Origin: Acidobacteriota bacterium
GTDB taxonomy: Bacteria > Acidobacteriota > Vicinamibacteria > Vicinamibacterales > JAFNAJ01
Direction of reading: 5' to 3'
Length of the DNA: 32,268 nucleotides
NCBI GenBank assembly: GCA_023384575.1
Contig: JAHDVP010000049.1
Location: 5,112-37,379, forward strand
Numbering within the stretch: position 1 is the first letter of the stretch; each line of letters begins with the position of its first letter. The notes under the pieces were generated by a model. That model saw only the letters and a program-made list of their open reading frames with translations. It had not been told where the DNA came from and made no database searches. The translations under genes and the position numbers were made by a program. This document shows, piece by piece, positions 2,664 through 25,472 of the stretch.

Positions 2664-4373
2664 TCAATACGCGTGAGATCCGCTCCAAGGCGGGAGCGTT
2701 CCCGCTGTCGCGTGCAGGCGCCCGTCTTCGAGGGCGAACACCTGGTCGGCGACCTTCACCGCGCGGATGTCGTGGGTGACGAGCAGCACCGCCGGCGCCG
2801 ACGCGTGATGCACGATCCGATCGAGCACGGCAGCCGTCTGCTCTGGCGACAGGTGATTGGTCGGCTCGTCGAGCAGGAGCAGGCGCGGCTCGCGCATGAG
2901 AGCCCGGGCGATGGCCAGGCGCTGCCGCTGCCCGCCCGACAGGCCCGAGCCGTCATCGCCAACCCGTGTTGCGAGGCCGTCGCGCAGATCGTCGACCAGG
3001 TGAGCGGCTCCGGTCCGGGCGAGCAGGTCTGCGAACTCGGCCGACGTTGGGCCGACCGGCAGGCCGAAGGCGAGGTTCTCGGCGGCGGTCCCGGCGAAGA
3101 CGAGCGGCTGCTGGGGCACGTGGCCGATCGAGGTCCTGAGCGCGTGCAGGTCGAGCACGTCGTAGGGCACGCCCTCGGCGAGCAGGCGCCCGAAGGTCGG
3201 GCGGTACCACCCCAGGATGAGCCGCAGCAGCGTCGTCTTGCCCGCACCGTTGCCGCCGACGAGGGCCACGATCCGGCCGGGCGCCGTGCTGAGCGTGACA
3301 CCCTCGAACACGCGGCCGCTCCCGTAATCGAAACCGACCTGCTCCAGCACGATGTGGCCGGCGAAGTCGACGCGCGTCGTTCCGGTGTAGGGTGTGGGCG
3401 CCTCGAGGCGAGCGAGCGCGTCGAGGCGGCCGAGGGCCGTCCATCCTTCGATCACGTTCGGCAGGGAGACCGAGATCGCGTGCATCGAGGCCCGCGCGAC
3501 GGCGAGCGCGGCGTAGAAGGCGAGCAGCTGCCCCCCGCTCATCCGGCCCGCGATCACCGCGCTGCCGCCGACGACGAGCACCGCCACGCCGGCAACGACG
3601 AGCAGCGTGCGGGGCAGGGCGGTGAACACGCCGGCCCAGTGCACGACTTCCTGACCCGAGGCGGCCGCACTGTCGACGATCCGCTCGTCGACCCGCGTCT
3701 CGCGATCGTCGAGGGCGTCGGAGCGAACGAGGTCGGCATAGCGGACACGGAAGAGGATGCGCTGGCTGAACGCCGCGAACCGGTCGTGGTGGGCCCGCGC
3801 GACGTGAAGGTGTCGCCGGGCCGCCCAGCGGCCAGCGACGAGCACCGGCGCCAGGCACGCCACCGCCACCAGGAACAGCCACAGGTCGACGAAGGCCAGC
3901 ACGAGCGTCAAGCCCGCGAGCAGGACGGCCGCCGGAACGATCTGCAGCAGGGTCTGGCTGAGCATCCCGTCGACCCGCTCGCTGTCGTGCACGAGCCGAT
4001 CGTGGAGCGTCGACGTTTCGAGCCGATCGAAGAAGGCGCGCGGGCGGCTCAGCACGTCACCCGCCAGGTCCCGCCGCAGACCCGCGACGATGCGCTTCGC
4101 GGCTCGCGAACCACTCCGGCGCGCGATGAGCAGGCAGCCCTCGCTGAGCCCCTGCAAGGCCAGGATGGCCGCGGCGACGACGAACAGACGCGTGCGGTCG
4201 GCGGCGGGCAGCGCCGCATCGAACGCATGCTGGACGAGCAGCGGCAGCGGGAGCAGGGCCACGCTCTGCAGCGTGCCGAACACGAGCGACACCAGGAGCA
4301 CCAGGCGCTCGGACGGCAGGTGTCTCCCCAGCATGGCGAGTCGGGAGCGGCGGGCGGACACCCGGCGTTTCAT
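2664..4373 (-). CDS. ABC exporter half-transporter (fused permease and ATPase)
   Basis: Inner-membrane ABC exporter of 569 residues. The N-terminal ~310 residues form the transmembrane domain; the C-terminal ~230 are the nucleotide-binding domain. ATPase motifs are intact: Walker A GGNGAGKTT, Q-loop VPQQPLVFAGT, signature LSGGQRQRLAIARAL, Walker B RLLLLDEPTNHL, and switch His in VTHD. As a half-transporter it should dimerise. It is a single gene divergent from the SDR/DUF2867 gene (74-base gap), so no neighbour reveals its substrate. No Shine-Dalgarno is seen; a TATCCT hexamer ends 8 bases before the ATG, so the mRNA may be almost leaderless. Class is certain; cargo is unknown. Confidence 0.93.
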   Translation of the reverse strand: MKRRVSARRSRLAMLGRHLPSERLVLLVSLVFGTLQSVALLPLPLLVQHAFDAALPAADRTRLFVVAAAILALQGLSEGCLLIARRSGSRAAKRIVAGLRRDLAGDVLSRPRAFFDRLETSTLHDRLVHDSERVDGMLSQTLLQIVPAAVLLAGLTLVLAFVDLWLFLVAVACLAPVLVAGRWAARRHLHVARAHHDRFAAFSQRILFRVRYADLVRSDALDDRETRVDERIVDSAAASGQEVVHWAGVFTALPRTLLVVAGVAVLVVGGSAVIAGRMSGGQLLAFYAALAVARASMHAISVSLPNVIEGWTALGRLDALARLEAPTPYTGTTRVDFAGHIVLEQVGFDYGSGRVFEGVTLSTAPGRIVALVGGNGAGKTTLLRLILGWYRPTFGRLLAEGVPYDVLDLHALRTSIGHVPQQPLVFAGTAAENLAFGLPVGPTSAEFADLLARTGAAHLVDDLRDGLATRVGDDGSGLSGGQRQRLAIARALMREPRLLLLDEPTNHLSPEQTAAVLDRIVHHASAPAVLLVTHDIRAVKVADQVFALEDGRLHATAGTLPPWSGSHAY

Positions 4374-5938: not shown

Positions 5939-5957
5939 GAGAGCCCGGCGGGCTCTC
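5939..5957. terminator. Hairpin between converging stop codons
   Basis: GAGAGCCC, loop GGC, GGGCTCTC is a perfect 8-bp stem. It begins at the base after the plus-strand stop codon (5936-5938) and overlaps the minus-strand gene's stop (5956-5958). There is no T-run on either side, so it is a probable bidirectional terminator or mRNA 3'-end protector rather than a classic intrinsic terminator. Confidence 0.55.
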
Positions 5958-7335
5958 AGCGCCACGACAGGTGATCGTACCGCGCGCCGTCCTTCATGAT
6001 GAAGCGGACGCGCCGGACCGCGGTGATGTCGTCGATCGGGTTCCCGGCGACCGAGATCAGGTCGGCGAGCTTGCCGGCCTCGATCGTGCCGAGGTGGTCG
6101 CCGTACCCGATGAGTCGCGCGGCGGTGCTGGTGACGGTGCGCAGCGCATCGATCGGCGGGATGCCCGCCTCGACGAGGAACTCCACCTGGAGGGCGAGGA
6201 CGCCGTAGAAGCCATCCGAGCCCAGACTGAAGGGCAGGCCGGCCTTCCACGCGTGCAGATACTGGCGCTGCACGGTCTTCACGGCCTGGAACATGTCGCG
6301 TCCTGCGCGTCCGGGCTCGTTGTCCTCGTAGGGCCGGTCGACCGTCTCCTGTTCCGGGTGCGCGGCGCGGTAGGCGGCGAACTCCCGTGCCAGATGGTTC
6401 ATCCACTCCTCGGCGCCCGCGACACCCGTGTCCATCGTGCGCCAGGTGGCCGGCGTCGGACGCCAGCCGATGTAGACGTGCGGCGTCAGGCTCGCGGACA
6501 CGCCGCGTTCGATCATCCGCGCGACGAGGTCCTCGGTGAGCGGCCGCGCGTGTTCGATGTTGTCGACACCCGCGTCGATCGCCGCACGCATGGCCGACCC
6601 CCATCGTCCGGTGGCGTGCATCGTCACCTTGAGTCCGAGGCGGTGCGCCTCGTCGACCGCGGCGCGAATGTCCTCGAGGGCCATCTGGCCCGACTCCGGT
6701 GTGGCGTCGAGATGCGTGAGCTTGATCCACTCCACGCCGCGGGCGAAGTTGCGCCGTACGGCGCGGCGAATGGCCTCGGGACCGTCGACGCCGTCGGCGC
6801 CGGCATTGTGCGCTCCGGTGTTGGTGATGTGCGGACCTGAGGCGACGATGCGCGGGCCCACCTGGCGACCGTCACGGATGGCCTCGCGCAGGAGCACGTC
6901 GTTGAAGTTGGGCTCGCCCGCCTGTCGGACGGTGGTCACTCCGAGGAGGAGCTGGACTCGCGCGGTCCGGATCACCGTGAGCATCTGCTCGTTGGGGGGC
7001 GCCTCACGCTGCGCCTGGAGGCCCAGCACTCCGCCCGGGGCGTAGCGCAGCACGAAGTGCGAGTGCGTGTCGATGAAGCCCGGCAGAAGGGTCTGGCCCG
7101 GCAGGTCGACGACCTCCGCTCCCGCCGGGACGCCGACCGACTCACGTGGGCCAACCTGCGCGATTCGTTGTCCTCGCACGAGCACGGCCATCTCGGGCTG
7201 CGGGGCCGAACCGGTGGCGTCGATCAGCCACTCCGGCCGGATGACCAGGGTACGGTCTGCCGGCTGGGCGGCGGCGCCCGCTACCAGGGTGAGCGCGGAC
7301 AGGGCGACCAGACCCAGGCGATCGCGGTTGGACAT
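5956..7335 (-). CDS. Secreted amidohydrolase-superfamily enzyme
   Basis: Metal-dependent hydrolase of 459 residues, of the imidazolonepropionase/Xaa-Pro-dipeptidase-like amidohydrolase group. An N-terminal signal peptide (LGLVALSALTLVAGAAAQP) implies export. The usual landmarks are present: LPGFIDTHSHF with the first HxH metal site, Lys in WIKLTH (candidate carboxylated or bridging Lys), His in VTMHATG, His in DNIEHA, and the late Asp in LGSDGF. The C-terminal part has the small beta-sandwich signature AARLIGYGDHLGTIEAGKLADL. Such secreted enzymes usually act on dipeptides or cyclic amides; the substrate cannot be assigned. The gene is divergent from the gamma-glutamyltransferase-like gene, perhaps under shared control. 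No Shine-Dalgarno is visible. Confidence 0.92.
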   Translation of the reverse strand: MSNRDRLGLVALSALTLVAGAAAQPADRTLVIRPEWLIDATGSAPQPEMAVLVRGQRIAQVGPRESVGVPAGAEVVDLPGQTLLPGFIDTHSHFVLRYAPGGVLGLQAQREAPPNEQMLTVIRTARVQLLLGVTTVRQAGEPNFNDVLLREAIRDGRQVGPRIVASGPHITNTGAHNAGADGVDGPEAIRRAVRRNFARGVEWIKLTHLDATPESGQMALEDIRAAVDEAHRLGLKVTMHATGRWGSAMRAAIDAGVDNIEHARPLTEDLVARMIERGVSASLTPHVYIGWRPTPATWRTMDTGVAGAEEWMNHLAREFAAYRAAHPEQETVDRPYEDNEPGRAGRDMFQAVKTVQRQYLHAWKAGLPFSLGSDGFYGVLALQVEFLVEAGIPPIDALRTVTSTAARLIGYGDHLGTIEAGKLADLISVAGNPIDDITAVRRVRFIMKDGARYDHLSWR

Positions 7336-7391: not shown

Positions 7392-7420
7392 TTGACACCC
7401 TGGCACCCTTTCGCTAGGGT
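7392..7420 (+). promoter_or_regulatory. Sigma70-type promoter of the gamma-glutamyltransferase-like gene
   Basis: TTGACA (7392-7397), 17-base spacer, TAGGGT (7415-7420). The -35 is a perfect consensus. The start codon at 7495 leaves a 5' leader of about 67 bases. Confidence 0.6.
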
Positions 7421-7494
7421 GGACGCATACTGACAGGGCTGTCTTCCCCCGTCTGGCGTAGGGATTCGACCACCCGTTCGAACTGGAGGCCGTT

Positions 7495-9222
7495 ATGCGT
7501 GTGCGACCGTTGTTGGGGGCCCTCTTCGCCGGCATCCTGCTCGCTGGCGTCGGGGGCGTGGCCGAGCAGCAGGTGCTGCCGCCCAATCTGCCAGCCGATC
7601 CTCGCGACCCCGCGCTCAATCAGGGGCCCAAGCCAGCCGCGACCGGCCGCCAGGGCATGGTCAGCACGCAGCTGCCGATCGTCTCGGAAGCGGCCCTCGA
7701 GGTGCTGCGCAAGGGGGGTAATGCCGTCGATGCGATGGTGACGGCGGTCTTCCTCCAGCACGTGAACGACTACCACCAGGTCTCGCACTTCGGGGCGATG
7801 TCGGCGCTCTACTACGAGGCCAAGACCGGGACACTGCACGCAATCAACGCCGTGTCGGAGCGACCGCGCTCCGATCGCGGCGATCGCGGCGATGCCAACA
7901 AGGTCGCGATTGGCGGTGTGGTACGCGGGCTCGAGGCCCTCGCCACCCGGTTCGGCACGCGACCGTGGGCCAGCTACCTCGAGCCGGCGATCGCGTCGGC
8001 CGACGAGGGTGTGGTGGTGACGTCGTACATGTATGGCATCAACTACCAGAAATGGAGCACGGAGGAGTTCATCCAGAGCAACCCGGCCGCCCGCGCCTTC
8101 TACATGCCCGAGGGGCACCTCGTGCCCGTCGGCGCGCGCTGGAAGATGCCGGCGCTCGCCGCGCACCTTCGCCGCCTCGCGGCTGAGGGGGCGGACTACA
8201 TGTACTCCGGCGAGTGGGGCAGGAAGTTCGTCAAGGAAGCCACCAAGCGCGGCGGCCGGGTGACCGAGGCCGACTTGGCCGAGTACCGCCCCCACTGGGA
8301 CGAGCCGGTGCGCTTCACGTACCGCGGTCACGAGATCGTCGGCTCGCCCGCGCCCGACACCGGGGGCCTCGTGGTCGGGTACAACCTGAACATCCTCGAG
8401 CAGTTCGACCTGAAGGGGATGGGCCACTACGCGCAGTCGGCCGAGACGCTCGAGACGATGGCGCGGGCGTTCGCGCGGGTGTCCGACGAGACGCGCTGGG
8501 CCATCAACGATCCGCTGAACTTCCACGTGCCGCAGGCCCTCTGGCTGTCGAAGGACTACGGCCGGATGGGCGCGGAGTACGTGAAGCAGACGCGGGCGAA
8601 GGTCTCGCTCGCGGGCGCGGCCGAGACGGAGGAGGCGCAGGCGGCTGCCGGCGTCCGCACGCCGGTCGTGGGATTCGGCCACGGCGATGAAGCGCTCGGC
8701 AGCAACCACAACGTCATCGTCGATGCGGAGGGCAACTGGATCTCGATGCTGCACACCGGCCACGGCGGTGCGCCGGGGGTGCACATCGACGGCGTCGAAG
8801 CGACCGGCAGCACAGCGCGCGCCCTCGCCGTCGGACCGGGACGCCGGCTGGTGCTTCCCATCACGGCCATCATGATCCTCAAGGACGGCAAGCCCTGGCT
8901 CGCGATGGGCACGCCCGGGTCGCCGCCGCAGCCGGTGACGCAGGTGCTCGTCAACATCCTCGACTTCGGCATGACGCCGGGTGAGGCCGCCGATGCCCCG
9001 CGGTTCTGGGCGGCGCGCGGCACCGACCGCACGCTCGACATCGAATCTCGAATCGCGCCGTCGGTCCGCGAGGGACTCGCCGCCCGCGGCATCAAGATCA
9101 AAGACCTCGGCGACTACAACTGGCACACGGGATCGATGCAGATCGTCTGGCGTGACGCCGCAACAGGCGCACTGCACGGGGTGACCGATCCCCGGCGGCT
9201 GGGCCGCGCCAGCGGGTTCTGA
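7495..9222 (+). CDS. Secreted gamma-glutamyltransferase-like Ntn hydrolase, atypical active site
   Basis: Protein of 575 residues resembling the gamma-glutamyltransferase/cephalosporin acylase family, which cleave gamma-glutamyl or acyl amides after self-cleavage into two subunits. A signal peptide is present (LLGALFAGILLAGVGGVAEQ) and GGAGG precedes the ATG. Family features are the N-terminal GMVSTQ...ALEVLRKGGNAVDA block and the mid-protein block GSNHNVIVDAEGNWIS. In classical enzymes the latter reads TTH.SVVD and the first Thr is the nucleophile. Aligned on the His, Ser403 takes that place. The downstream GSPGG loop reads GSPPQ here (475-479), and no SSM(S)P segment is evident. It is therefore a divergent member: either a Ser-nucleophile hydrolase or inactive. 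Topology and export are well supported; activity is uncertain. Confidence 0.88.
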   Translation: MRVRPLLGALFAGILLAGVGGVAEQQVLPPNLPADPRDPALNQGPKPAATGRQGMVSTQLPIVSEAALEVLRKGGNAVDAMVTAVFLQHVNDYHQVSHFGAMSALYYEAKTGTLHAINAVSERPRSDRGDRGDANKVAIGGVVRGLEALATRFGTRPWASYLEPAIASADEGVVVTSYMYGINYQKWSTEEFIQSNPAARAFYMPEGHLVPVGARWKMPALAAHLRRLAAEGADYMYSGEWGRKFVKEATKRGGRVTEADLAEYRPHWDEPVRFTYRGHEIVGSPAPDTGGLVVGYNLNILEQFDLKGMGHYAQSAETLETMARAFARVSDETRWAINDPLNFHVPQALWLSKDYGRMGAEYVKQTRAKVSLAGAAETEEAQAAAGVRTPVVGFGHGDEALGSNHNVIVDAEGNWISMLHTGHGGAPGVHIDGVEATGSTARALAVGPGRRLVLPITAIMILKDGKPWLAMGTPGSPPQPVTQVLVNILDFGMTPGEAADAPRFWAARGTDRTLDIESRIAPSVREGLAARGIKIKDLGDYNWHTGSMQIVWRDAATGALHGVTDPRRLGRASGF

Positions 9223-9285
9223 TCGCCGAACCGATCTACACTCTCCGGCGGGCCGTACGTCCGCGCGGCCCGCCGGAGGGAGCGC

Positions 9286-10875
9286 ATGTCCGCCCACGCC
9301 ATCGGCACGTCCTCGGGTCGTTTCAGTGGGCCCGACGAGTGGGACGCAATCGTGGTCGGCTCGGGCATCGGTGGTCTCGCGACGGCCTGGCTCCTCGGTC
9401 GCAAGGCGGCCAAGCGCGTACTCGTCCTCGAGCGGCACTACACGGCCGGCGGTTTCACGCACAGCTTCAGACGCCCGGGATACGAGTGGGACGTCGGCGT
9501 TCACTACGTCGGCCGCGTCGGCCGGGCCGATGCCGACCTGGGCCTGCTGTTCCGCGAGATCGCCGGCGACTCGCTGCACTGGGCGTCGATGGGCGACGTG
9601 TACGACACCATCGTGCTCGGCGATCGGCGATTCGACTACGTCGTCGGGCGCGACCGTTGGCGGGAGCGCCTCATCGAGTACTTCCCCGGCGAGCAGCGCG
9701 CCATCGACGAGTACCTCGCGGCCGTCGAGAGTGCAGTGCGCGGACTGAGGCTGTACTTCGCCGAGAAGGCCATGCCGCGCCCAGTCGCGGCGCTCACCGG
9801 CACGTTCATGCGGTCGCGCTTCATGAAGCGGGCGAGGCAGACGACCCGGGCCGTACTCGAGTCGCTGACTGCCAACCAGACCCTGATCGCCGTGCTCACG
9901 GGACAGTGGGGCGACTACGGCCTGCCGCCCGCCGAATCGAGCTTCGGCATTCACGCCATCGTCACGCACCACTACTTCGAAGGCGGGTTCTACCCGGTCG
10001 GAGGCGCTCGGGCCATCGCCGCTGCCATCGTGCCACGCATCGAGTCGCTGAAGGGCGCCGTGGTCGTGGACGCCGAAGTCACGCGGCTGCTCGTCGAGCG
10101 CGGGCGGGTCGTCGGTGTGCAGCTTGCCGGCGGCCGTGAGTTCAGAGCGCCCATCGTCGTGAGCGACGCCGGGCTCCGCCGCACGCTGGCACTGCTTCCC
10201 GGCGGGGTGCCCGGTCGCTCGGTGCTCGACCGCGTCGCCGGGCGGGTCGCTCCCTCGGCGGCCCACGCGTGCCTGTACGTCGGACTGTCGCGTGACGACG
10301 CCGAGCTCGGTCTCGAGAAGCGCAACCTCTGGGTCTACCAGGACGAGGCCCACGAGAAGGCGCTCGCGCGCTTCGCCAGCGACCCGGGCCAGCCCTTCCC
10401 GCTCGCGTTCGTTTCGTTCCCGTCGGCCAAGGATCCGACGTTCGGATCGCGGTACCCCGGCCGGGCGACCATCGAGGTCGTCACCCTCGCGCGGTACGAG
10501 TGGTTCGAGCGGTGGGCCGCGGAGCCGTGGCGTCGCCGGGGCGATCCGTACGCCGAGTTGAAGGCCAGGCTGACGGAGCGGCTGCTCGACGTCCTGTATC
10601 GCGAGGTACCGTCGGTTCGCGGGCACGTCGAGGTCGCCGAGCTGTCGACTCCTCTCAGCACCCGCCACTTCGCCGGGTACGATCGTGGAGAGATCTACGG
10701 GCTGGCCCACACGCCGACGCGGTTCGCCGAACGGGGACTGAGGCCGGCGACTCCGGTGACGGGATTGTGGCTCACCGGCCAGGACGTGGCCACGTGCGGC
10801 GTGGGCGGCGCCCTCTCGAGCGGGTACCTGACGGCCTCGGCCATCGTGGGCCGGCCGGTGTTCCCGCGGGGATGA
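9286..10875 (+). CDS. FAD-dependent oxidoreductase, phytoene desaturase/retinol saturase-like
   Basis: Flavoprotein of 529 residues in the CrtI/CrtISO/RetSat group, which saturate, desaturate or isomerise polyene chains. The N-terminal dinucleotide motif VVGSGIGGLATAWLLG is followed by VLVLERHYTAGGFTHSF, the usual Rossmann plus GG-doublet pattern, and by WDVGVHYVG. The C-terminal FAD-closing motif GLWLTGQDVATCGVGGALSSGY is intact. No signal peptide is seen. GGAGGGAG precedes the ATG. The gene sits 136 bases upstream of the PqqD-like gene on the same strand, but nothing shows a functional link. No other carotenoid or isoprenoid genes are in the window, so the substrate is open. Confidence 0.9.
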   Translation: MSAHAIGTSSGRFSGPDEWDAIVVGSGIGGLATAWLLGRKAAKRVLVLERHYTAGGFTHSFRRPGYEWDVGVHYVGRVGRADADLGLLFREIAGDSLHWASMGDVYDTIVLGDRRFDYVVGRDRWRERLIEYFPGEQRAIDEYLAAVESAVRGLRLYFAEKAMPRPVAALTGTFMRSRFMKRARQTTRAVLESLTANQTLIAVLTGQWGDYGLPPAESSFGIHAIVTHHYFEGGFYPVGGARAIAAAIVPRIESLKGAVVVDAEVTRLLVERGRVVGVQLAGGREFRAPIVVSDAGLRRTLALLPGGVPGRSVLDRVAGRVAPSAAHACLYVGLSRDDAELGLEKRNLWVYQDEAHEKALARFASDPGQPFPLAFVSFPSAKDPTFGSRYPGRATIEVVTLARYEWFERWAAEPWRRRGDPYAELKARLTERLLDVLYREVPSVRGHVEVAELSTPLSTRHFAGYDRGEIYGLAHTPTRFAERGLRPATPVTGLWLTGQDVATCGVGGALSSGYLTASAIVGRPVFPRG

Positions 10876-10932
10876 CGAGGGGCGTCTCCGCCCGGCTGCG
10901 GCGACTCGCGTCACGCCACGTGTCACTCCACC

Positions 10933-10961
10933 TTGCGTTCTGGCGCCAGCTTCGGTAGGGT
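10933..10961 (+). promoter_or_regulatory. Possible promoter of the PqqD/kinase/GT operon
   Basis: TTGCGT (10933-10938), 17-base spacer, TAGGGT (10956-10961), with the same -10 hexamer as the ggt-like promoter. A start about 7 bases downstream would leave the GAGGAG at 10962-10967 out of the mRNA, so either this promoter or that ribosome-binding site is probably not used as drawn. Confidence 0.3.
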
Positions 10962-10973
10962 GAGGAGCCACGA

Positions 10974-11015
10974 ATGCACTCGGTCGACTCTTGCCTGGTT
11001 CCCAGCGTCCGATGA
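10974..11015 (+). CDS. Possible 13-residue leader ORF coupled to the PqqD gene
   Basis: ATG 10974 has GAGGAG at 10962-10967, six bases away. It opens a short frame, MHSVDSCLVPSVR, whose stop overlaps the PqqD start as ATGA (11012-11015). The PqqD start has no Shine-Dalgarno of its own, so re-initiation after this mini-ORF is a plausible way to translate it. It may be a regulatory leader peptide; it is probably too short to be a RiPP precursor. It could also be chance. Confidence 0.35.
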   Translation: MHSVDSCLVPSVR

Positions 11016-11500
11016 CTCCCCGCTATCGCGTCAACGCCCCGCACGTCGTCTCGGAGACGATCGACGGCGAGTCCATCGTGATCAACTTACAGAACGGGTG
11101 CTACTACAGTCTGCGCGAGACGGCGACCGAGATCTGGTCGCTCGTCGGGCCGCTCGGCTGCGCCGGGGCCATCGCGGCCAGGCTGGCCCGCCGGTACCCC
11201 GACGCCGGGCCCGTTGTCGCGGACCAGGTGTCGGCATTCATCGGGCGTCTGTGCGGCGAGGGCCTGCTCGTCGAGGTGAGCGGCGACGACGATGGCGCCG
11301 TGCCGCCGCGTGAGGCGACGCGCGACGATCAGGACGGTATCGCACGCCCCGCGTTCGCACCTCCGGCGTTCGACAAGTACAACGACCTGCAGGAACTCCT
11401 CCTCGCCGACCCGATTCATGAGGTCGGGGAGGGCGGATGGCCGACCCAACTGCCGCCCGAATCGCGCGTCGCGCGGCCTCCGGACGAGTCGTCGCGGTGA
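11012..11500 (+). CDS. PqqD-family RiPP recognition protein with leader-like C-terminal tail
   Basis: Protein of 162 residues. Residues ~1-92 form a PqqD-like domain, the winged-helix recognition element that binds leader peptides of ribosomally made, modified peptides. Typical features are GESIVINLQNGCYYSLRETATEIWSL and the later VSAFIGRLCGEGLLVEV. Free-standing PqqD proteins are about 90 residues. Here an acidic linker (~93-110) leads to a tail (~111-145) reading FAPPAFDKYNDLQELLL and then ADPIHEVGEGGWP. The tail resembles the YxxPxLxxxG leader motif of lasso-peptide precursors. The start is ATG 11012, overlapping the stop of a 13-residue ORF; TTG 10991 is an alternative. This is the first enzyme-sized gene of a run of overlapping genes (kinase, two GT2). 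Domain assignment is strong; the tail's role is inference. Confidence 0.88.
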   Translation: MTPRYRVNAPHVVSETIDGESIVINLQNGCYYSLRETATEIWSLVGPLGCAGAIAARLARRYPDAGPVVADQVSAFIGRLCGEGLLVEVSGDDDGAVPPREATRDDQDGIARPAFAPPAFDKYNDLQELLLADPIHEVGEGGWPTQLPPESRVARPPDESSR

Positions 11501-12570
11501 GCCGTCGAGCTGGTGAGTTCGGAGCCTCGGCGGAGGTCGACGGCGGCCTCTCGGTGCTGGAGGCAGCGTTCGACCGCGCCGCGGCGCGGTGCGGGCGGTT
11601 CGACGCGATGTTCCGCATCGGCGGCCAGCGCTGCCGGGTGGTGGCCGCGGGGACGCGGATGTTCGACCTGCTGGTCGCACCCCTTCGCCACCTCGAGGTC
11701 GCCGACGGCGTCGCCGACTTCACGCTGCTCGCCTGGGATCGTCACTCGACGGGCGAGGCGCTGCCTCGCTGCGAAGGGCGCGACGTCCGTGTGCCGGGCG
11801 ACCCCTCGTCGCAAGGCGCCACCGACGGCGTGCTCGCCTTGCGCCAGCTCGATCAGGGCACCTTCTCGGCGTACGCGCCGGGACATCGTCTCGGCGTCTT
11901 CTGGGCCGATGATCTGCGTGCCTGTGACAGGGTCCTGCCGCTCCGGCTGTTCCTTCACTGGTGGATGGCGCCGCTCGGCCTGACGCTCGTGCACGCCGGC
12001 GCCGTGGGCTCAGGAGGCCGAGGCGTCCTCGTCACGGGCGCCGGTGGACGTGGGAAATCCACGTCGTGCGTGTCGGCCCTGGTCGCCGGTCTCGACTACG
12101 CCGGCGACGACTTCGTCCTCGTCGACATGCGCGACGACGACGTCGTGGCGCACAGCGTCTCGTGTTCGGCGCGGTTCACGGCCCAGAGCTTCGCTCGGGT
12201 GCCGGCCGTTGCGGGCGACGTGGCCGACGCCGGGCCTGCCGTGGACGGGAAGCGCTTCCTGGTCCTGCATCCGCGCTGGCGGACGCGGCTCGTGCCGTCG
12301 ATCGCCATCGATGCTCTCGTGATTCCGTCCATCGTCCCCGGCTCGGCGAGCCGCGTCGTTGCCATTTCGTCGGGCGAGGCGCTCCGGGCGATGGTCAGTA
12401 CGCTCGTCGCCATTGTCGGCGACCGCGACGAGGCGTTTCGGCGGCTCGCGGCGCTGGCGCGCCGCCGCCCGTGCTATCGGCTGGAGGCGGGCAGCGACAG
12501 CTCGGGCGTCACCGACGCCATCCTGGCCCTCGTGTCCCGCGACCATCTCTCGCATGGCCGCCTCACCTGA
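11437..12570 (+). CDS. HPr-kinase-like (HprK-related) P-loop kinase
   Basis: Protein of 377 residues. The C-terminal half resembles the catalytic domain of HPr kinase/phosphorylase: TLVHAGAV, then the P-loop GAGGRGKST (201-209), then LDYAGDDFVLVD, matching the His, Walker A and Asp-Asp order of that family. The N-terminal ~180 residues are not recognised. HPr and other sugar-phosphotransferase parts are absent, and HprK-related proteins next to PqqD proteins form a known association (HPr-rel systems); relatives in lasso clusters phosphorylate a Ser of the peptide. ATG 11437 is preferred because GGGGAGGG precedes it; it lies inside the PqqD tail and gives a 64-base overlap. GTG 11497, overlapping the PqqD stop as GTGA, would give 357 residues. 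It overlaps the next gene by 17 bases. Confidence 0.87.
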   Translation: MADPTAARIARRAASGRVVAVSRRAGEFGASAEVDGGLSVLEAAFDRAAARCGRFDAMFRIGGQRCRVVAAGTRMFDLLVAPLRHLEVADGVADFTLLAWDRHSTGEALPRCEGRDVRVPGDPSSQGATDGVLALRQLDQGTFSAYAPGHRLGVFWADDLRACDRVLPLRLFLHWWMAPLGLTLVHAGAVGSGGRGVLVTGAGGRGKSTSCVSALVAGLDYAGDDFVLVDMRDDDVVAHSVSCSARFTAQSFARVPAVAGDVADAGPAVDGKRFLVLHPRWRTRLVPSIAIDALVIPSIVPGSASRVVAISSGEALRAMVSTLVAIVGDRDEAFRRLAALARRRPCYRLEAGSDSSGVTDAILALVSRDHLSHGRLT

Positions 12571-13267
12571 TCCACGTCCGACCGTCGCCGTGGTCGTACC
12601 CGTCTTCAATGCCGCGCGGTTCCTCCGCGAGGCGCTCGCGAGCGTGCTCGCCCAGACCTATCCTCACACCGAACTGATCGTGGTCGACGACGGCTCGACC
12701 GACGGAAGCGCGGAGCTCGCCGAGGCTGTGACCGGGCAGCCCGTGATTCGCCAGCCACATTCCGGCGCGGCGGCAGCGCGCAACGCGGCCCTGGAGCGGT
12801 GTCGCGCGGACATCGTCGCCTTCCAGGATGCCGACGACGTGTGGCTGCCGCAGAAGACGGCCCGGCAGGTCGAGTACCTGCTCGCGCATCGCGACGAGCC
12901 GTGCTGCACGTGCCAGCGCATCGACTTCCTCGATCCGTCGATCGCGGGTGACGCAGCCGTCTGGTGCCCGGCGTCGACGCTCAATGTGCCGCTGGTCTCG
13001 TACGGGACGGGGACGATCGTGGCGTGGCGGAGCCTGTTCGACGAAGTGGGCGACTTCGATCCGTCGTACGACATCGTTCACGACACCGAGTGGATGGCTC
13101 GGGTCCGCGCACGCGGCTACCGGTTGGGGGTGGTTGAGGAAGTGCTCTATCACCGTCGCGTCCACGCGGCGAACCTGTGTGCGGACCAGGCGAAGATGAG
13201 CCTCGAGCTGTTTCGTGTCTACCGGGCCCAGGCCCGACGGCATCGTTTGGAGGCGAGCTCGTCGTGA
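12554..13267 (+). CDS. Family 2 glycosyltransferase (first of a pair)
   Basis: GT-A-fold glycosyltransferase of 237 residues, cytoplasmic, that transfers a sugar from a nucleotide-sugar donor. Landmarks: VAVVVPVFNAARFLREALASV, nucleotide-binding VVDDGSTDGS, SGAAAARNAALE, metal-binding FQDADDVW, and an acceptor-side DTEWMARVRARG. It ends near YHRRVHAAN, with no membrane segments. ATG 12554 lies 17 bases inside the end of the kinase gene, so the two are probably translated together. It ends in a GTGA overlap with the second, paralogous GT2. The acceptor is unknown. Given the operon it could be a modified peptide, or a polysaccharide intermediate. Confidence 0.9.
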   Translation: MAASPDPRPTVAVVVPVFNAARFLREALASVLAQTYPHTELIVVDDGSTDGSAELAEAVTGQPVIRQPHSGAAAARNAALERCRADIVAFQDADDVWLPQKTARQVEYLLAHRDEPCCTCQRIDFLDPSIAGDAAVWCPASTLNVPLVSYGTGTIVAWRSLFDEVGDFDPSYDIVHDTEWMARVRARGYRLGVVEEVLYHRRVHAANLCADQAKMSLELFRVYRAQARRHRLEASSS

Positions 13268-13989
13268 CGCCCGGGGACGGTACGTCGGGCCGGGCGGTGG
13301 CGCCGCTGTCGATTGCCGTGGTGGTGCCGGTGCGCGACGGTGCGGCGACGATCGCCGAGGCGCTCGAGAGCGTGCTTGGACAGTCAGTGCAGCCTGATGA
13401 AGTCGTCGTCGTCGACGACGGGTCGACCGATGGGACGCTCGAGGTGCTCTCGCGGTTCGCTCCCGCGGTCCGCGTGTACGAGCAGCCGACGGCGGGAGCC
13501 GGACCGGCGCGCAACACGGGCGTGGCGATGACGTCGGCGCCGTGGATCGCGTTTCTCGATGCCGACGACCGCTGGGTGCCGGATGCTCTCGAGCGGCTGG
13601 CGGCTCCGCTCGAGGCCGACCCGACCCTCGATGTCGTCCTCGGACGTCAGCGGCTGGTGCCGGCCCGCCTGTGGGACGCCGCCCTGGCCGGGACCGTGAC
13701 CGAATGCCTCGAGGAACGTCCAGGAGCCGGCCCGGGGACGGCCCTCGTGAGGCGCGCGGTGTTCGAAGCGGCCGGGGGTTTCGCGACCGGCTGGCAGGTC
13801 GGCGAGTTCGTCGACTGGCACTTGAGGGCCGTCGACAGAGGTGCGCGCGTGGTGCGGGTCGACGACGTCGTGCAGTGGCGGCGCGTCCACGGCGCCAACA
13901 CGGTGATCGCGCGGCGCGACGCGTATGGAGACTACGCCAGGATCATCAAAGCGGCGCTCGATCGGCGGCGGACCGCTGGCGGGGGGTGA
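13264..13989 (+). CDS. Family 2 glycosyltransferase (second of a pair)
   Basis: GT-A-fold glycosyltransferase of 241 residues, paralogous to the gene before it. The same sequence of motifs is seen: IAVVVPVRDGAATIAEALESV, VVDDGSTDGT, AGPARNTGVA, FLDADDRW, VDWHLRAVDRGAR, and terminal WRRVHGANTV. The start is GTG 13264, which overlaps the previous stop as GTGA and has GGAG about 11 bases upstream; the open frame extends further upstream, but that part is not family-like. Two similar transferases in tandem suggest two sequential sugar additions, as inference. It is the last gene of the operon and converges on the nucleotidyltransferase gene, with a short heptamer repeat between them. Confidence 0.9.
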   Translation: MTPGDGTSGRAVAPLSIAVVVPVRDGAATIAEALESVLGQSVQPDEVVVVDDGSTDGTLEVLSRFAPAVRVYEQPTAGAGPARNTGVAMTSAPWIAFLDADDRWVPDALERLAAPLEADPTLDVVLGRQRLVPARLWDAALAGTVTECLEERPGAGPGTALVRRAVFEAAGGFATGWQVGEFVDWHLRAVDRGARVVRVDDVVQWRRVHGANTVIARRDAYGDYARIIKAALDRRRTAGGG

Positions 13990-14000
13990 GGGGTAGAGGG

Positions 14001-14021
14001 TTCTTGGTCCTTGGTTCTTGG
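14001..14021. repeat. Three tandem heptamers T(T/C)CTTGG
   Basis: TTCTTGG, TCCTTGG, TTCTTGG follow one another in the 35-base gap between converging genes, preceded by a G-rich stretch. It looks unlike the surrounding coding DNA. It could be a copy of a dispersed intergenic repeat; copy number cannot be judged from one window. Confidence 0.6.
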
Positions 14022-14024
14022 TGA

Positions 14025-15170
14025 TCAGTTCCCCATGGCGCCCTGCTGGCGCCGCGAGCCCCACTCTCGCGCGAGCAGCCACGGCGTGCGCCACGATCGC
14101 TCCACCCGCGCCGTGTCGGCGCAGTACCGGACGAAGCCGATGGGGCCACGTCCGTAGCGCGCAGCCGGCAGGGCTCTCCGGAAGTGCCGCCAGAACCGCG
14201 GCAGGTAGCCCGGCGCGAAGGAGCGCCCTCGCATCCGGCACGCGAAGTCGATGCGGTCTCCGAGTGACGGCCTGACGGCACGGGCATGGGCCACCGCCGG
14301 CGCTGGCAGCACACCGGGCAGGAGACGCTCGACGTAGGTGAGTCCCTGCGCGACGATCCAGTCGACGCGATGAGCCGCGACGCGGCGCCAGAAGCGGCGC
14401 CAGTCGAGGGCCGGCCCGGTGGCGCGCACGAGGCCGACCACATCTGCTACCCAGCGGATGGGAGCGACCGGGGCCCACGCCAGCCCGTGGGTGAGCGCGT
14501 GCAGCAGGTGGTCGGCCGGCTGCAGCGTCAGCGTCGACGCGTGGAGCAGCTCGAGCGGTTGGGCACCGGCCCACGATTCATCGTCGGCCCCGGGCCGCAT
14601 GTCGTCGTAGAGGATGTGCCAGTGGAGGTCGAAGCTGCCGCCGCGCACGTGCTCGAACGGCGACGATGCACGGCAGCGCATCTCACGGCTCAGAGGGGGG
14701 AACACGGCACGCCAGCCGCGCCGCTCGAGCAGGCCGGCCGCGTCGACGGCCAGCTCGCGGGGGACGACGACGTCTCCGTCCTCCATGGCCCGTGCCCCGC
14801 TGCCGCCGTACGCGACGATCTGAAGGGCCAGGCCCTTCACGACAAGCGTGGGAATGGCCGCGGCCGACAGTGCCTCGATGACGTCGGCCATCAGTCGCGC
14901 GTGCAGCTGGTTCCTGACCCACGTGTGCCGGTAGAGCCCCTTGAGGCGGGCGGCCTCCGGCATGTCGGGCGCATCGCGCCACAGGTGCTCGTACACCAGC
15001 GGGAACAGACGAGTCGATGCGGCGTCGGCTGCATCGAGCGTGTAGAGGCGCGTCCAGCGCGTCCACTCGTCGAGCGCGATGGTGGGCTCGGCGAGCGCAG
15101 CCCTCAGCAGACGTTCCTGAGAGAGCGTCGGCCAGGCGTCCCAGGGTACCAGCGCGGGAGAATCGGGCAT
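14025..15170 (-). CDS. NTP_transf_5-type nucleotidyltransferase
   Basis: Protein of 381 residues with the pattern of the NTP_transf_5 nucleotidyltransferase family. LVVKGLALQIVAYGG (Lys112) is followed by the metal-binding GARAMEDGDVVV (Asp131, Asp133) and FDLHWHI (Asp181, His183). ATG 15170 is chosen from the fit of the N-terminus; the frame stays open to 15236 and no Shine-Dalgarno is clear. Members of this family accompany PqqD-like and HPr-kinase-like genes, and one in a kinase-type lasso cluster (pseudomycoidin PsmN) is reported to act on the phosphorylated peptide. It converges on the PqqD/kinase/GT2 operon and lies downstream of the GT39 gene on the same strand. Activity here is inferred, not shown. 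Confidence 0.87.
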   Translation of the reverse strand: MPDSPALVPWDAWPTLSQERLLRAALAEPTIALDEWTRWTRLYTLDAADAASTRLFPLVYEHLWRDAPDMPEAARLKGLYRHTWVRNQLHARLMADVIEALSAAAIPTLVVKGLALQIVAYGGSGARAMEDGDVVVPRELAVDAAGLLERRGWRAVFPPLSREMRCRASSPFEHVRGGSFDLHWHILYDDMRPGADDESWAGAQPLELLHASTLTLQPADHLLHALTHGLAWAPVAPIRWVADVVGLVRATGPALDWRRFWRRVAAHRVDWIVAQGLTYVERLLPGVLPAPAVAHARAVRPSLGDRIDFACRMRGRSFAPGYLPRFWRHFRRALPAARYGRGPIGFVRYCADTARVERSWRTPWLLAREWGSRRQQGAMGN

Positions 15171-15256: not shown

Positions 15257-16864
15257 TCAGCGGGCCGTCGGCGCCCGAGTGGATGTGCCCTCGACGGAAA
15301 CGATCGTGAGCAGCGGTCCGGGCTCGTGACGAACCGATGAGACACTCCGGGAATCGACGTCCGAGGCGAGGCGTCGAGCATCGTCGCGAAGGGCCGGCAC
15401 GAACCCGGCGTCGTGGCTGGTGACGACGAGCACCTCGGCGGCGCGGCCCTCCTCGATCCAGGTCAGAGCGGCGTCGGTCACCGACTCCACCGCGTCCATC
15501 CTCGCCCGACTCGACAGGTCGACCCGGATTACGAGGAAGAGTCGGGCGTCGCCGGCGCTCGTGCGGAGGAGACTGGTCAGGTCGTCGCCGGCCCGAGGTC
15601 CGCGGCTGAGCGGCACGCCGTGGAGCGGAACCGTTCCGCGCCTCGAGAGATTGGCGGCGACGCCGTGCACGGCGTAGTTCGGCACGACGACGACGACGTC
15701 ACCGGGGCGCCAGGATGCATCGACGACGCGCGCGACTTGCGGCCATGGCTCGATCGGCTGCGAGGCGAACACGGCGGTCCACGAGACGCTTCCGAGCATC
15801 GCCAGGCCGACGGCGGAAGCCCAGCCTAGTCTTCGGAGCGCCGGTCGTCGCAGCGAGGCGATCTGCAGCGAGGCGGCTCCGGCGAGAAGGGGGAGGAGCA
15901 GCAGCAGCGACCGCGGCACCAGGAACGGCCGCATGACGACGCTGACGAGGGCGAGGCCGGCGGCAACCGCTGCCGCCGCGCCGACCCAGGCGAGGGCGGC
16001 TCGTGAACGGCCCGATGCGGCCGACACCAGTAGGCCTGCGAGCAGGACACCGTGGGCAGCCACGAACGCGAATGGCGCATCGGCGAGATCGGCGGCTGGA
16101 TCCGCCCAGTAGGAGCCGATTTGCGCGGCCAGCCGGGCCGCAAGGGGCGGAGTGACCGGTGGCATCCACCACTCGTTCTCCGCAGGCCAGGAATAGAGCC
16201 ATCGCGCGATCAGCACAACGGCCGGCGCGGCCAGACCAATCGCCATGGCGCCAGTCACGGGCCGGGCCGTCAGTGAGCGCCACGTGCCAGACGCCACGAC
16301 GATGAACACCGCGACGGCGGGCACGAGGAGCAGACCCGTGAAGTGCAGCAGCCCGCTGGCGAGGAGGCCGCCAGCGAGCACGACGCGCCAGCGGCGGTCG
16401 TCGGGTGCGTCACGCAATCGAACGACGGCGACGAGGACGAGGGCCTGCGCCGCGAGCAGCCACGCGTAGGGCCGGAGTTCCTGCGCGTATCGGAGCAGCA
16501 TCGGGTGCGCCCCCATCAGCGTGACGGCGAGCCGGCCGGCGGTGGGGCGGACCCTCTCGAGTGCGACGGCGACCAGGACGAGGGCGGTGACGGCCGGCAG
16601 TATCGAGAAGAGGCGCAGCCACCACTCCGCCTCGCTGGCCAGGGCCCACGCTCGAAGGGCCAGGAAGTACGAGGGAGGCGAGTGTTCCGTCGCCAGCGCG
16701 CGCAGCGCGTCGTGGAGCGAGGAGGGGACCACGACCCGCAGGGTGAGCGCCTCGTCGAGCCAGTAGCCCTTCTCGAGTCCGAGCAGGCGCAGCATGGCGG
16801 CGGCGGCGAGGATGCCGGCCAGTGCGACGGACGCTCGTGGGAGGTGGCGTGGGACTGTCGGCAT
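15257..16864 (-). CDS. Membrane glycosyltransferase, GT39/ArnT-like
   Basis: Polytopic inner-membrane protein of 535 residues resembling GT-C-fold (GT39/GT83) transferases, which use polyprenyl-phosphate sugars on the outer face of the membrane. After the first membrane segment the canonical acidic loop motif YWLDEALT (Asp37, Glu38) appears, followed by TEHSPPSYFLAL, LRYAQELRPYAWLL and many Leu/Val/Ala-rich helices. The last ~150 residues are a soluble, probably periplasmic domain. No Shine-Dalgarno is evident before ATG 16864. It is co-directional with the nucleotidyltransferase gene downstream (86-base gap) and separated from the TonB receptor gene upstream by a hairpin. Sugar and acceptor are unknown. 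Confidence 0.88.
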   Translation of the reverse strand: MPTVPRHLPRASVALAGILAAAAMLRLLGLEKGYWLDEALTLRVVVPSSLHDALRALATEHSPPSYFLALRAWALASEAEWWLRLFSILPAVTALVLVAVALERVRPTAGRLAVTLMGAHPMLLRYAQELRPYAWLLAAQALVLVAVVRLRDAPDDRRWRVVLAGGLLASGLLHFTGLLLVPAVAVFIVVASGTWRSLTARPVTGAMAIGLAAPAVVLIARWLYSWPAENEWWMPPVTPPLAARLAAQIGSYWADPAADLADAPFAFVAAHGVLLAGLLVSAASGRSRAALAWVGAAAAVAAGLALVSVVMRPFLVPRSLLLLLPLLAGAASLQIASLRRPALRRLGWASAVGLAMLGSVSWTAVFASQPIEPWPQVARVVDASWRPGDVVVVVPNYAVHGVAANLSRRGTVPLHGVPLSRGPRAGDDLTSLLRTSAGDARLFLVIRVDLSSRARMDAVESVTDAALTWIEEGRAAEVLVVTSHDAGFVPALRDDARRLASDVDSRSVSSVRHEPGPLLTIVSVEGTSTRAPTAR

Positions 16865-24422: not shown

Positions 24423-24539
24423 TCTTCAGTTTCGCGTCGCGTAATCGCACCTATCCTGCTGATGGACGACCGCGCGCCCCCGGCGGCCTGGGCGGCGCCA
24501 GCCGCCCGGCCGATGGCCCCCGCCACCAGGAGGATGTCA

Positions 24540-25463
24540 ATGAATTCACGCCGCTGGCTCGCGCTCGTGGGCGTGGTGTCGACGCTCGCGCTGTCGCTCG
24601 GGCTGGGGTCGACGACGGCCAAGTCGGTCAAGAAGCCGATCGACTGGGCCACCGTGCACCCCGCCTACGAGGGCGCGACGTACGTCAACGACCGCGACGC
24701 GTGCCTGACCTGTCACGAAGACGCGATGAAGACTTTCGAGGTCACGGCACACGGACGGGTGTTCCGTCACGACGCGCCGTCGATTGGAGGTGAGTGCGAG
24801 AGCTGCCACGGTCCGAGGAGCAAGCACCTCGAGGAGCCGTCGAACGAGCTCGCGTACGCGACGCTCACGACGGCGCAGCAGTCGGCCATCTGCCAGCAGT
24901 GCCACTCGGGCGGCACGCAGTTCGGCTGGAAGAGTGGCGCCCATCACGCCGGTGACGTCAGCTGCGGCTCCTGTCACAACGTCATGGAGAAAAGGAGCGA
25001 GCGTGCCCTGCTCGTGAAGTCGTCGCAGAGCGACGTCTGCTACACGTGCCACGCCGAGATCAGGGCCGACACCATGAAGCCGTCGCACCACCCGGTACGC
25101 GAAGGGCAGATGGAGTGCTCGAGCTGCCACAACGTGCACGGTGCCACACCTGGCCTGCTCGTGAAATCGACGCTCAACGAGACCTGCACGACGTGCCACG
25201 CCGAGAAGCGTGGGCCGTTCCTGTGGGAGCACGCGCCGGTGCGCGAGAGCTGCGCCAACTGTCACACGCCGCACGGGTCGAACCAGCGGTTCCTGCTGAC
25301 GGCGAAGGACCCGTTCCTCTGCCTGAGCTGCCACAGCTATGGCGGGCACATCAACCTGCCGCGCTACAACCGCACCAGCAACCCGTATGGGCACGGGTGC
25401 ATGAACTGTCATGTGGGCACTCACGGGTCGAACCACCCGTCGGGCGCCAAGCAGATGAGGTAG
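24540..25463 (+). CDS. Periplasmic decaheme c-type cytochrome, MtrA/DmsE/PioA-like
   Basis: Secreted cytochrome of 307 residues with exactly ten CxxCH heme sites: CLTCH, CESCH, CQQCH, CGSCH, CYTCH, CSSCH, CTTCH, CANCH, CLSCH and CMNCH. The spacing and length match the MtrA/DmsE family (MtrA ~333 residues). In Mtr, Mto and Pio systems this protein sits inside a beta-barrel partner and carries electrons across the outer membrane. The N-terminus is a signal peptide (WLALVGVVSTLALSLGLG). ATG 24540 is chosen because AGGAGG (24528-24533) lies six bases upstream; ATG 24534 is too close. The porin gene follows after nine bases. It differs from PioA in lacking a long N-terminal extension. Direction of electron flow cannot be read from sequence. 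Confidence 0.95.
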   Translation: MNSRRWLALVGVVSTLALSLGLGSTTAKSVKKPIDWATVHPAYEGATYVNDRDACLTCHEDAMKTFEVTAHGRVFRHDAPSIGGECESCHGPRSKHLEEPSNELAYATLTTAQQSAICQQCHSGGTQFGWKSGAHHAGDVSCGSCHNVMEKRSERALLVKSSQSDVCYTCHAEIRADTMKPSHHPVREGQMECSSCHNVHGATPGLLVKSTLNETCTTCHAEKRGPFLWEHAPVRESCANCHTPHGSNQRFLLTAKDPFLCLSCHSYGGHINLPRYNRTSNPYGHGCMNCHVGTHGSNHPSGAKQMR

Positions 25464-25472
25464 GGGGCTGCC

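Follow-up and report, generated by a model that had tools for sequence, protein, structure and literature searches.

HprK-like kinases phosphorylate Ser residues in paeninodin-type peptides and in the linear polyphosphorylated peptides (LPP) of Bacillota (PMC9266682; Popov et al. 2026, PMC13381572). The hexose carried on the phosphorylated Ser requires a nucleotidyltransferase homologue, PsmN (PMC9266682), which may act as a nucleotidyltransferase or as an unusual glycosyltransferase. The LPP systems have a separate precursor of the form YxxPxVLxHQxIxFETxxS, a phosphorylated Ser3 and a SpI-type leader peptidase, and the leaders of both lasso peptides and LPP bind discrete RREs via the motif [Y/W]xxPx[L/V/I/F/A] (PMC13381572). 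Within the sections of two RRE surveys drawn on here, RREs fused to enzymes are described, glycosyltransferases included, and no fusion of an RRE to a precursor is (PMC7470986, PMC12710340); among open-access papers, none was found that names such a fusion or the operon reported below.

The locus to be compared with these systems lies in a stretch of 32,268 nucleotides (the window) on a 37-kb contig (C49) of a 5.9-Mb Acidobacteriota genome. From the gene ends, four plus-strand genes form a translationally coupled operon (11012–13989), each overlapping the next. They encode a PqqD-type RRE protein of 162 aa with a precursor-like C-terminal tail (11012–11500, ATG start; PF05402 2.1e-11, above cut-off), an HprK-like kinase (11497–12570, starting probably at GTG 11497 in a GTGA overlap with the PqqD gene) and two GT2 glycosyltransferases (12554–13267, ATG start, PF00535 5.6e-30; and 13264–13989, GTG start with a GTGA overlap, PF00535 2e-30). 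Convergent to them, on the minus strand, is an NTP_transf_5 nucleotidyltransferase (15170 to 14025, ATG at 15170; PF14907 4.4e-39). The overlapping chain and the converging nucleotidyltransferase had both been claimed in a sequence-only reading of this DNA and are confirmed by the gene ends and the profile match. Next to the nucleotidyltransferase is a multi-TM protein (15257–16864, minus strand), possibly accessory and GT39-like by eye, for which the Pfam and NCBIfam searches gave no family match and homologues of which stand near RRE and HprK genes in two other loci (L025 and L147). A large minus-strand ORF reaching the PqqD gene (7414–10971) was rejected as a shadow frame on the basis of GC by codon position. 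Also upstream of PqqD are a gamma-glutamyltranspeptidase (7495–9222) and an amidohydrolase (5956–7335), which were taken as unrelated to the system because neither family is prominent among the recurrent neighbours of the related loci. Elsewhere in the window, a multihaem cytochrome with doubled CXXCH is followed by an MtrB/PioB outer-membrane porin (24462–27917), together a possible extracellular electron-transfer conduit.

Judged by its sequence, the kinase is a distant HPr kinase. A Walker A motif (VTGAGGRGKST) followed by GDD was recognised by eye, and the protein matched TIGR04352 (HprK-related kinase A) at 5.3e-9 and 35.6 bits, far under the curated cut-off of 200 bits, and TIGR04355 at 1.4e-6, likewise far under its curated cut-off. 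The kinases of the relatives scored 25–47 bits against TIGR04352, all under 200, and neither the kinases nor the RRE-tail proteins attained the curated cut-off of any NCBIfam model. The Pfam search of the window kinase returned no match, a PHROGs search matched none of PqqD, kinase and NTP_transf_5, and a sequence search of HprK against the PDB gave chance-level matches only, HprK P-loops among them. A scan of genome contigs with the single HprK protein found nothing because this protein is too divergent, whereas a scan with an alignment of four tailed proteins succeeded; in the tail loci so found, 68 of the 78 HprK ORFs have a Walker A motif and 67 the downstream DD. The kinase and the RRE show distant homology to the HprK-related kinases A and B (TIGR04352/TIGR04355) and to ScmC/ScmD of SynChlorMet, with all scores far under the curated cut-offs.

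The PqqD protein seems to carry the candidate precursor as its own C-terminal tail, so that no separate gene would be missing. In the window protein the RRE ends near residue 90 and is followed by a variable linker and then by a conserved tail (residues 115–144, FAPPAFDKYNDLQELLLADPIHEVGEGGWP), in which a leader-like motif of the YxxPxL type (FAPPAF, 11354–11371, plus strand) precedes a conserved core (DLQELLLADPIHEVGEGGWP, 11384–11443, plus strand) that bears the residues invariant in relatives. The four-protein alignment, scanned against about 85,000 species genomes, yielded 152 relatives, of which 80 were kept; 79 of the 80 have the tail, preceded by a linker that varies. Its consensus is [FY]xxPxLxKY[TS]DMQDLLLLDPIHEVDExGWP, with Phe oftener than Tyr as the first residue of the leader-like part, and relatives from the same order have the identical tail type behind unrelated linkers. 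The scan pattern was D[ML]Q[DE][LF]LL[LAV]D, by which the conservation of that stretch was partly selected; conserved outside it are P134 and H136 (82 of 82 sequences), G142, W143 and P144 (79–80 of 82), and F/Y115 and P118 (78 of 82 each). The invariant residues of the core are Asp, Pro and His, namely D125, D133, P134 and H136 (81–82 sequences). In three Nitrospirota loci (L095, L103 and L130), a second GWP or DWP repeat was seen past the core (e.g., SGWPNVDDKKGWPTRNPD).

Going by the genome records and the tree of RRE domains, tail loci span about 18 phyla, including Chloroflexota, Bacteroidota, Cyanobacteriota, Planctomycetota, Nitrospirota, Pseudomonadota, Actinomycetota and Acidobacteriota. 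Within the Acidobacteriota the system is patchy, since the tail occurs in 13 of 396 evenly drawn genomes. A core that is near-invariant over so many phyla is unlike most natural-product cores and looks more like a docking motif or the precursor of a cofactor. PQQ and mycofactocin are RRE-dependent and have a highly conserved core in many phyla; the near-invariant core is shared with them, but here no radical SAM enzyme was seen among the recurrent neighbours of the tail loci, and the putative precursor is fused to the RRE.

No Ser or Thr is invariant anywhere in the tail (82-sequence alignment). Between the DMQ and GW motifs, 43 of 78 cores, the window's included, contain neither residue, and the window has Asn at a position held by Ser/Thr in 64 of the 78. 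Of the RiPP-tailoring proposal made earlier from the sequence, one part stands, namely a conserved RiPP-like gene set lacking B2 and cyclase; Ser phosphorylation of the paeninodin or LPP type is not simply transferable, because so many cores are without Ser/Thr. The second option of that proposal, a polysaccharide system, may apply. In a rival explanation the tail would be an unmodified docking and assembly motif: kinase, nucleotidyltransferase and glycosyltransferases would be brought together on the RRE-tail protein as a scaffold, to make a glycolipid or a polysaccharide of the cell surface, and the leader-like part would act as a switch by folding back. A near-invariant core that has no invariant Ser/Thr agrees with such a scaffold. 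We regard it as possible, if rather unlikely, in view of the structural and phylogenetic evidence below.

The F/YxxPxL that opens the tail agrees with the YxxPxL motif through which the leaders of lasso peptides and LPP attach to their RREs. Using the 81-sequence alignment, AlphaFold2 gave the window protein a pLDDT of more than 90 in the RRE, near 65 in the linker and 57–81 in the core, while residues 111–120 reached 93 and a short strand was formed by residues 120–123. A second member, from Ignavibacteria, gave the same picture, the leader part standing at pLDDT 93–94 and the core at 56–83 over both models, and the tail beyond the leader part being loose. Lasso B1–leader complexes were the best structural matches, namely TbiB1 with the TbiA leader (Z 13.4, Foldseek E 1.9e-4; 5v1u, 5v1v) and TfuB1 with its leader (Z 12.1; 6jx3). 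From these models we infer that the tail strand pairs with strand 3 of the RRE, and the leader-type motif is predicted to dock on its own RRE, which speaks against an unmodified assembly motif.

Gene content was counted in the 55 tail loci whose sequence extends 7.5 kb or more downstream. HprK was present in 54, at least one GT2 in all 55 (with up to six GT2 matches per locus) and NTP_transf_5 in 49, bearing out the conservation of these neighbours in relatives on which the earlier proposal depended. The first recognised gene after the RRE-tail gene was HprK in 43 cases, NTP_transf_5 in 18 and GT2 in 11. PqqD genes of other phyla repeatedly have these parts around them too, so the arrangement is not due to chance. 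Other recurrent neighbours were GT4 enzymes (22 loci), sulfotransferases and NAD-dependent epimerases (about nine loci each), and unbiased clustering of the neighbours of tail loci showed no recurrent peptidase. Both the abundance of GT2, GT4, sulfotransferase and epimerase genes and the lack of a recurrent peptidase are in keeping with the scaffold for polysaccharide or glycolipid synthesis. A search of the loci for leader-like small ORFs, as candidates for a separate precursor gene, returned only the RRE-tail genes and unconserved noise. The largest unannotated neighbour cluster (64 loci) was set aside as antisense frames of GT2 genes, because almost all of its members lie on the opposite strand at GT2 gene positions.

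Matches to the ABC profile of the system were found in 34 of the 55 loci, with exporter identity putative, as this profile was grown by iteration and may take in unrelated ABC proteins; 21 of 53 matches have the motif LDEPTNHLD. The candidate MsbA-type exporter of the window (2664–4373, minus strand), 6.6 kb off and a less sure member of the set, matched this profile at 3.2e-178 and MsbA_rel at 244 bits, under the cut-off. It may be the exporter of the RRE-tail system, since its LDEPTNHLS resembles the LDEPTNHLD of the profile matches. Multiple GT2s, an MsbA-type transporter and no peptidase would also suit a tail serving as peptide primer or carrier, on a modified core residue of which the GT2s would build a glycan, the whole glycoprotein or glycopeptide then being exported; PsmK/PsmN provide a precedent in the hexose on phosphorylated Ser (PMC9266682). 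There is no invariant hydroxyl acceptor, however, which would leave Asp, His, Tyr or some variable site in that role, and we consider this explanation distinctly unlikely.

Lasso B2 was found in none of the 55 full-context tail loci (0/79 overall), and the lasso cyclase in none of 80 (L081–L160, by motif and profile). The absence of both beside these tailoring parts, noticed in the sequence-only reading, holds for the whole of C49, and the B2/cyclase pair with a normal precursor that would have overturned that reading was found neither there nor in the tail loci. The single B2 (PF13471) of the genome lies on contig C4, where its neighbours are another PqqD, this one without a tail, and another NTP_transf_5, while Asn_synthase matches are on contigs C34, C93, C1 and C5. 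These genes, together with the lasso kind of the RRE, would be expected of a degenerate or split lasso cluster with B2, cyclase and precursor elsewhere in the genome. We rejected this as highly improbable because all 80 examined tail loci are without B2 and cyclase, and the C4 locus moreover has a tail-less RRE of its own. In that locus (L022, C4:207000–226900), PqqD, B2 and NTP_transf_5 are adjacent, an HprK homologue is close by and no cyclase was found within the stretch; a leader-like ORF near the PqqD gene (YTPPVLEAHGSIVDLT, at 16435, minus strand) aligns by eye with FxPPxLxxYTDMQDLL of the tail. In comparison with the paeninodin and pseudomycoidin lasso clusters, the window shares the RRE (B1), the HprK-like kinase and NTP_transf_5, but has no B2, macrolactam synthetase, separate precursor or conserved C-terminal Ser; its PqqD-type discrete RRE is of the B1 kind, yet bears a tail.

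The PqqD proteins collected mostly either end soon after the RRE or bear an extension of about 40–60 aa that contains the leader motif. B2 or a cyclase adjoins many of the tail-less proteins and none of the tailed ones. In a tree of 120 RRE domains, built on 89 columns only, with tail-less rows all from one order, most tailed rows found via the tail, and the LppB and paeninodin RREs left out, 86 canonical and four variant tailed RREs formed one clade (support 99/96) apart from the lasso-type RREs. A single origin of the tailed RREs is likely, as is their descent from peptide-binding lasso-type RREs, and the latter counts against a purely scaffolding tail. So do the variant tails inside the clade, YAPPVLNAYRDMDDMLALDPPAPGL (L073), YETPRLNAYHDMADLLALDPPHPGL (L075) and YVSPHMEKHGKLDQLMLSGE (L074), in which the C-terminal parts differ behind the same leader motif. 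L025 has a variant tail, WDAPTVTPHG, that keeps the motif outside the tailed clade; there (L025:8526–10861) the RRE with tail WDAPTVTPHGRPLAQV is followed by HprK and GT2, and the homologue of the multi-TM protein is nearby.

One genome (G156) has two tailed RREs and one tail without an RRE. This RRE-less copy (FTEPTVHTYADMQDLLLLDPIHDVDETGWPNAK; L069, about 9690–9870, minus strand), located directly before a GMC oxidoreductase, may represent either a precursor in its own right or the remnant of a gene, and it too is at odds with a tail that works only as part of a scaffold. In L197 (Planctomycetales), on the other side, RRE, tail and HprK are in one ORF with the tail internal, before the kinase, as a docking motif could well be. 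HprK and GT2 are fused in 18 ORFs of the tail loci. In L035 (5649–6230, minus strand), an RRE-like protein with a Tat-like segment and a Cys-rich C-terminus (SCTQNCASAANCVPCDNCNKRCC) adjoins an HprK homologue and is possibly another RRE–precursor fusion.

Among the systems described so far, LPP of Bacillota comes closest. Both have a discrete lasso-like RRE, an HprK-like kinase and an NTP transferase without B2 or cyclase, as well as a YxxPx leader motif in a glycosyltransferase-rich neighbourhood, and the MsbA-like transporter of LPP has its putative counterpart in the ABC matches described above. Unlike LPP, with its separate precursor and SpI-type peptidase, the tailed system has the precursor-like peptide fused to the RRE, another conserved core, no conserved Ser and no recurrent peptidase, and its range is about 18 phyla in place of the Bacillota. 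With a probability of roughly 50%, we read the locus as an LPP-related system in which an RRE is fused to its own precursor, the C-terminal core being modified by the kinase, nucleotidyltransferase and glycosyltransferases. Counted in favour were the gene content, the conservation of the tail, the one clade, the predicted docking, the conserved operon, the fusions between parts, the absence of B2 and cyclase, the RRE-less tail in G156 and the lack of any other conserved leader-like small ORF; counted against were the absence of a recurrent peptidase and of an invariant Ser/Thr, the near-invariant core and the internal tail of L197. Alternatively, the tail could serve for docking, or as a carrier from which the load is not released, and these two together were weighted nearly as high.

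If the RRE is fused to its precursor, it would bind in cis to the leader part (F/YxxPxLxxY) of the tail, thereby presenting the core DMQDLLLLDPIHEVDExGWP to the enzymes of the operon, whose substrate we infer it to be, along with the following order of steps and product. On the pattern of paeninodin, pseudomycoidin and LPP, phosphorylation of the peptide by the HprK-like kinase would come first; a group derived from a sugar or a nucleotide would next be attached and lengthened by NTP_transf_5 and the GT2s, and the linear product would be exported by the MsbA-type exporter. No leader peptidase that would account for release of the core in the fusion reading recurs in the neighbourhoods. More tentatively, the tailed proteins could represent a widespread, unnamed RiPP-like class whose recogniser and precursor form a single polypeptide acting in cis on a near-invariant core; its product would be a conserved phosphopeptide, cofactor-like or bearing a glycan, whose export involves no leader peptidase. 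The system may be a separate class of its own.

The combination, in about 18 phyla, of tail, kinase, nucleotidyltransferase and sugar transferases, often with an exporter, points to a kind of decorated ribosomal peptide not yet described, and the scant variation of the core favours some basic role over that of a variable toxin or antibiotic. If the fusion reading is true, a small protein's tail would become the defined candidate substrate of a widespread gene set, the customary difficulty of locating the precursor would be gone, and the chemistry of HprK-like kinases and NTP_transf_5 proteins would become directly testable in one small operon.
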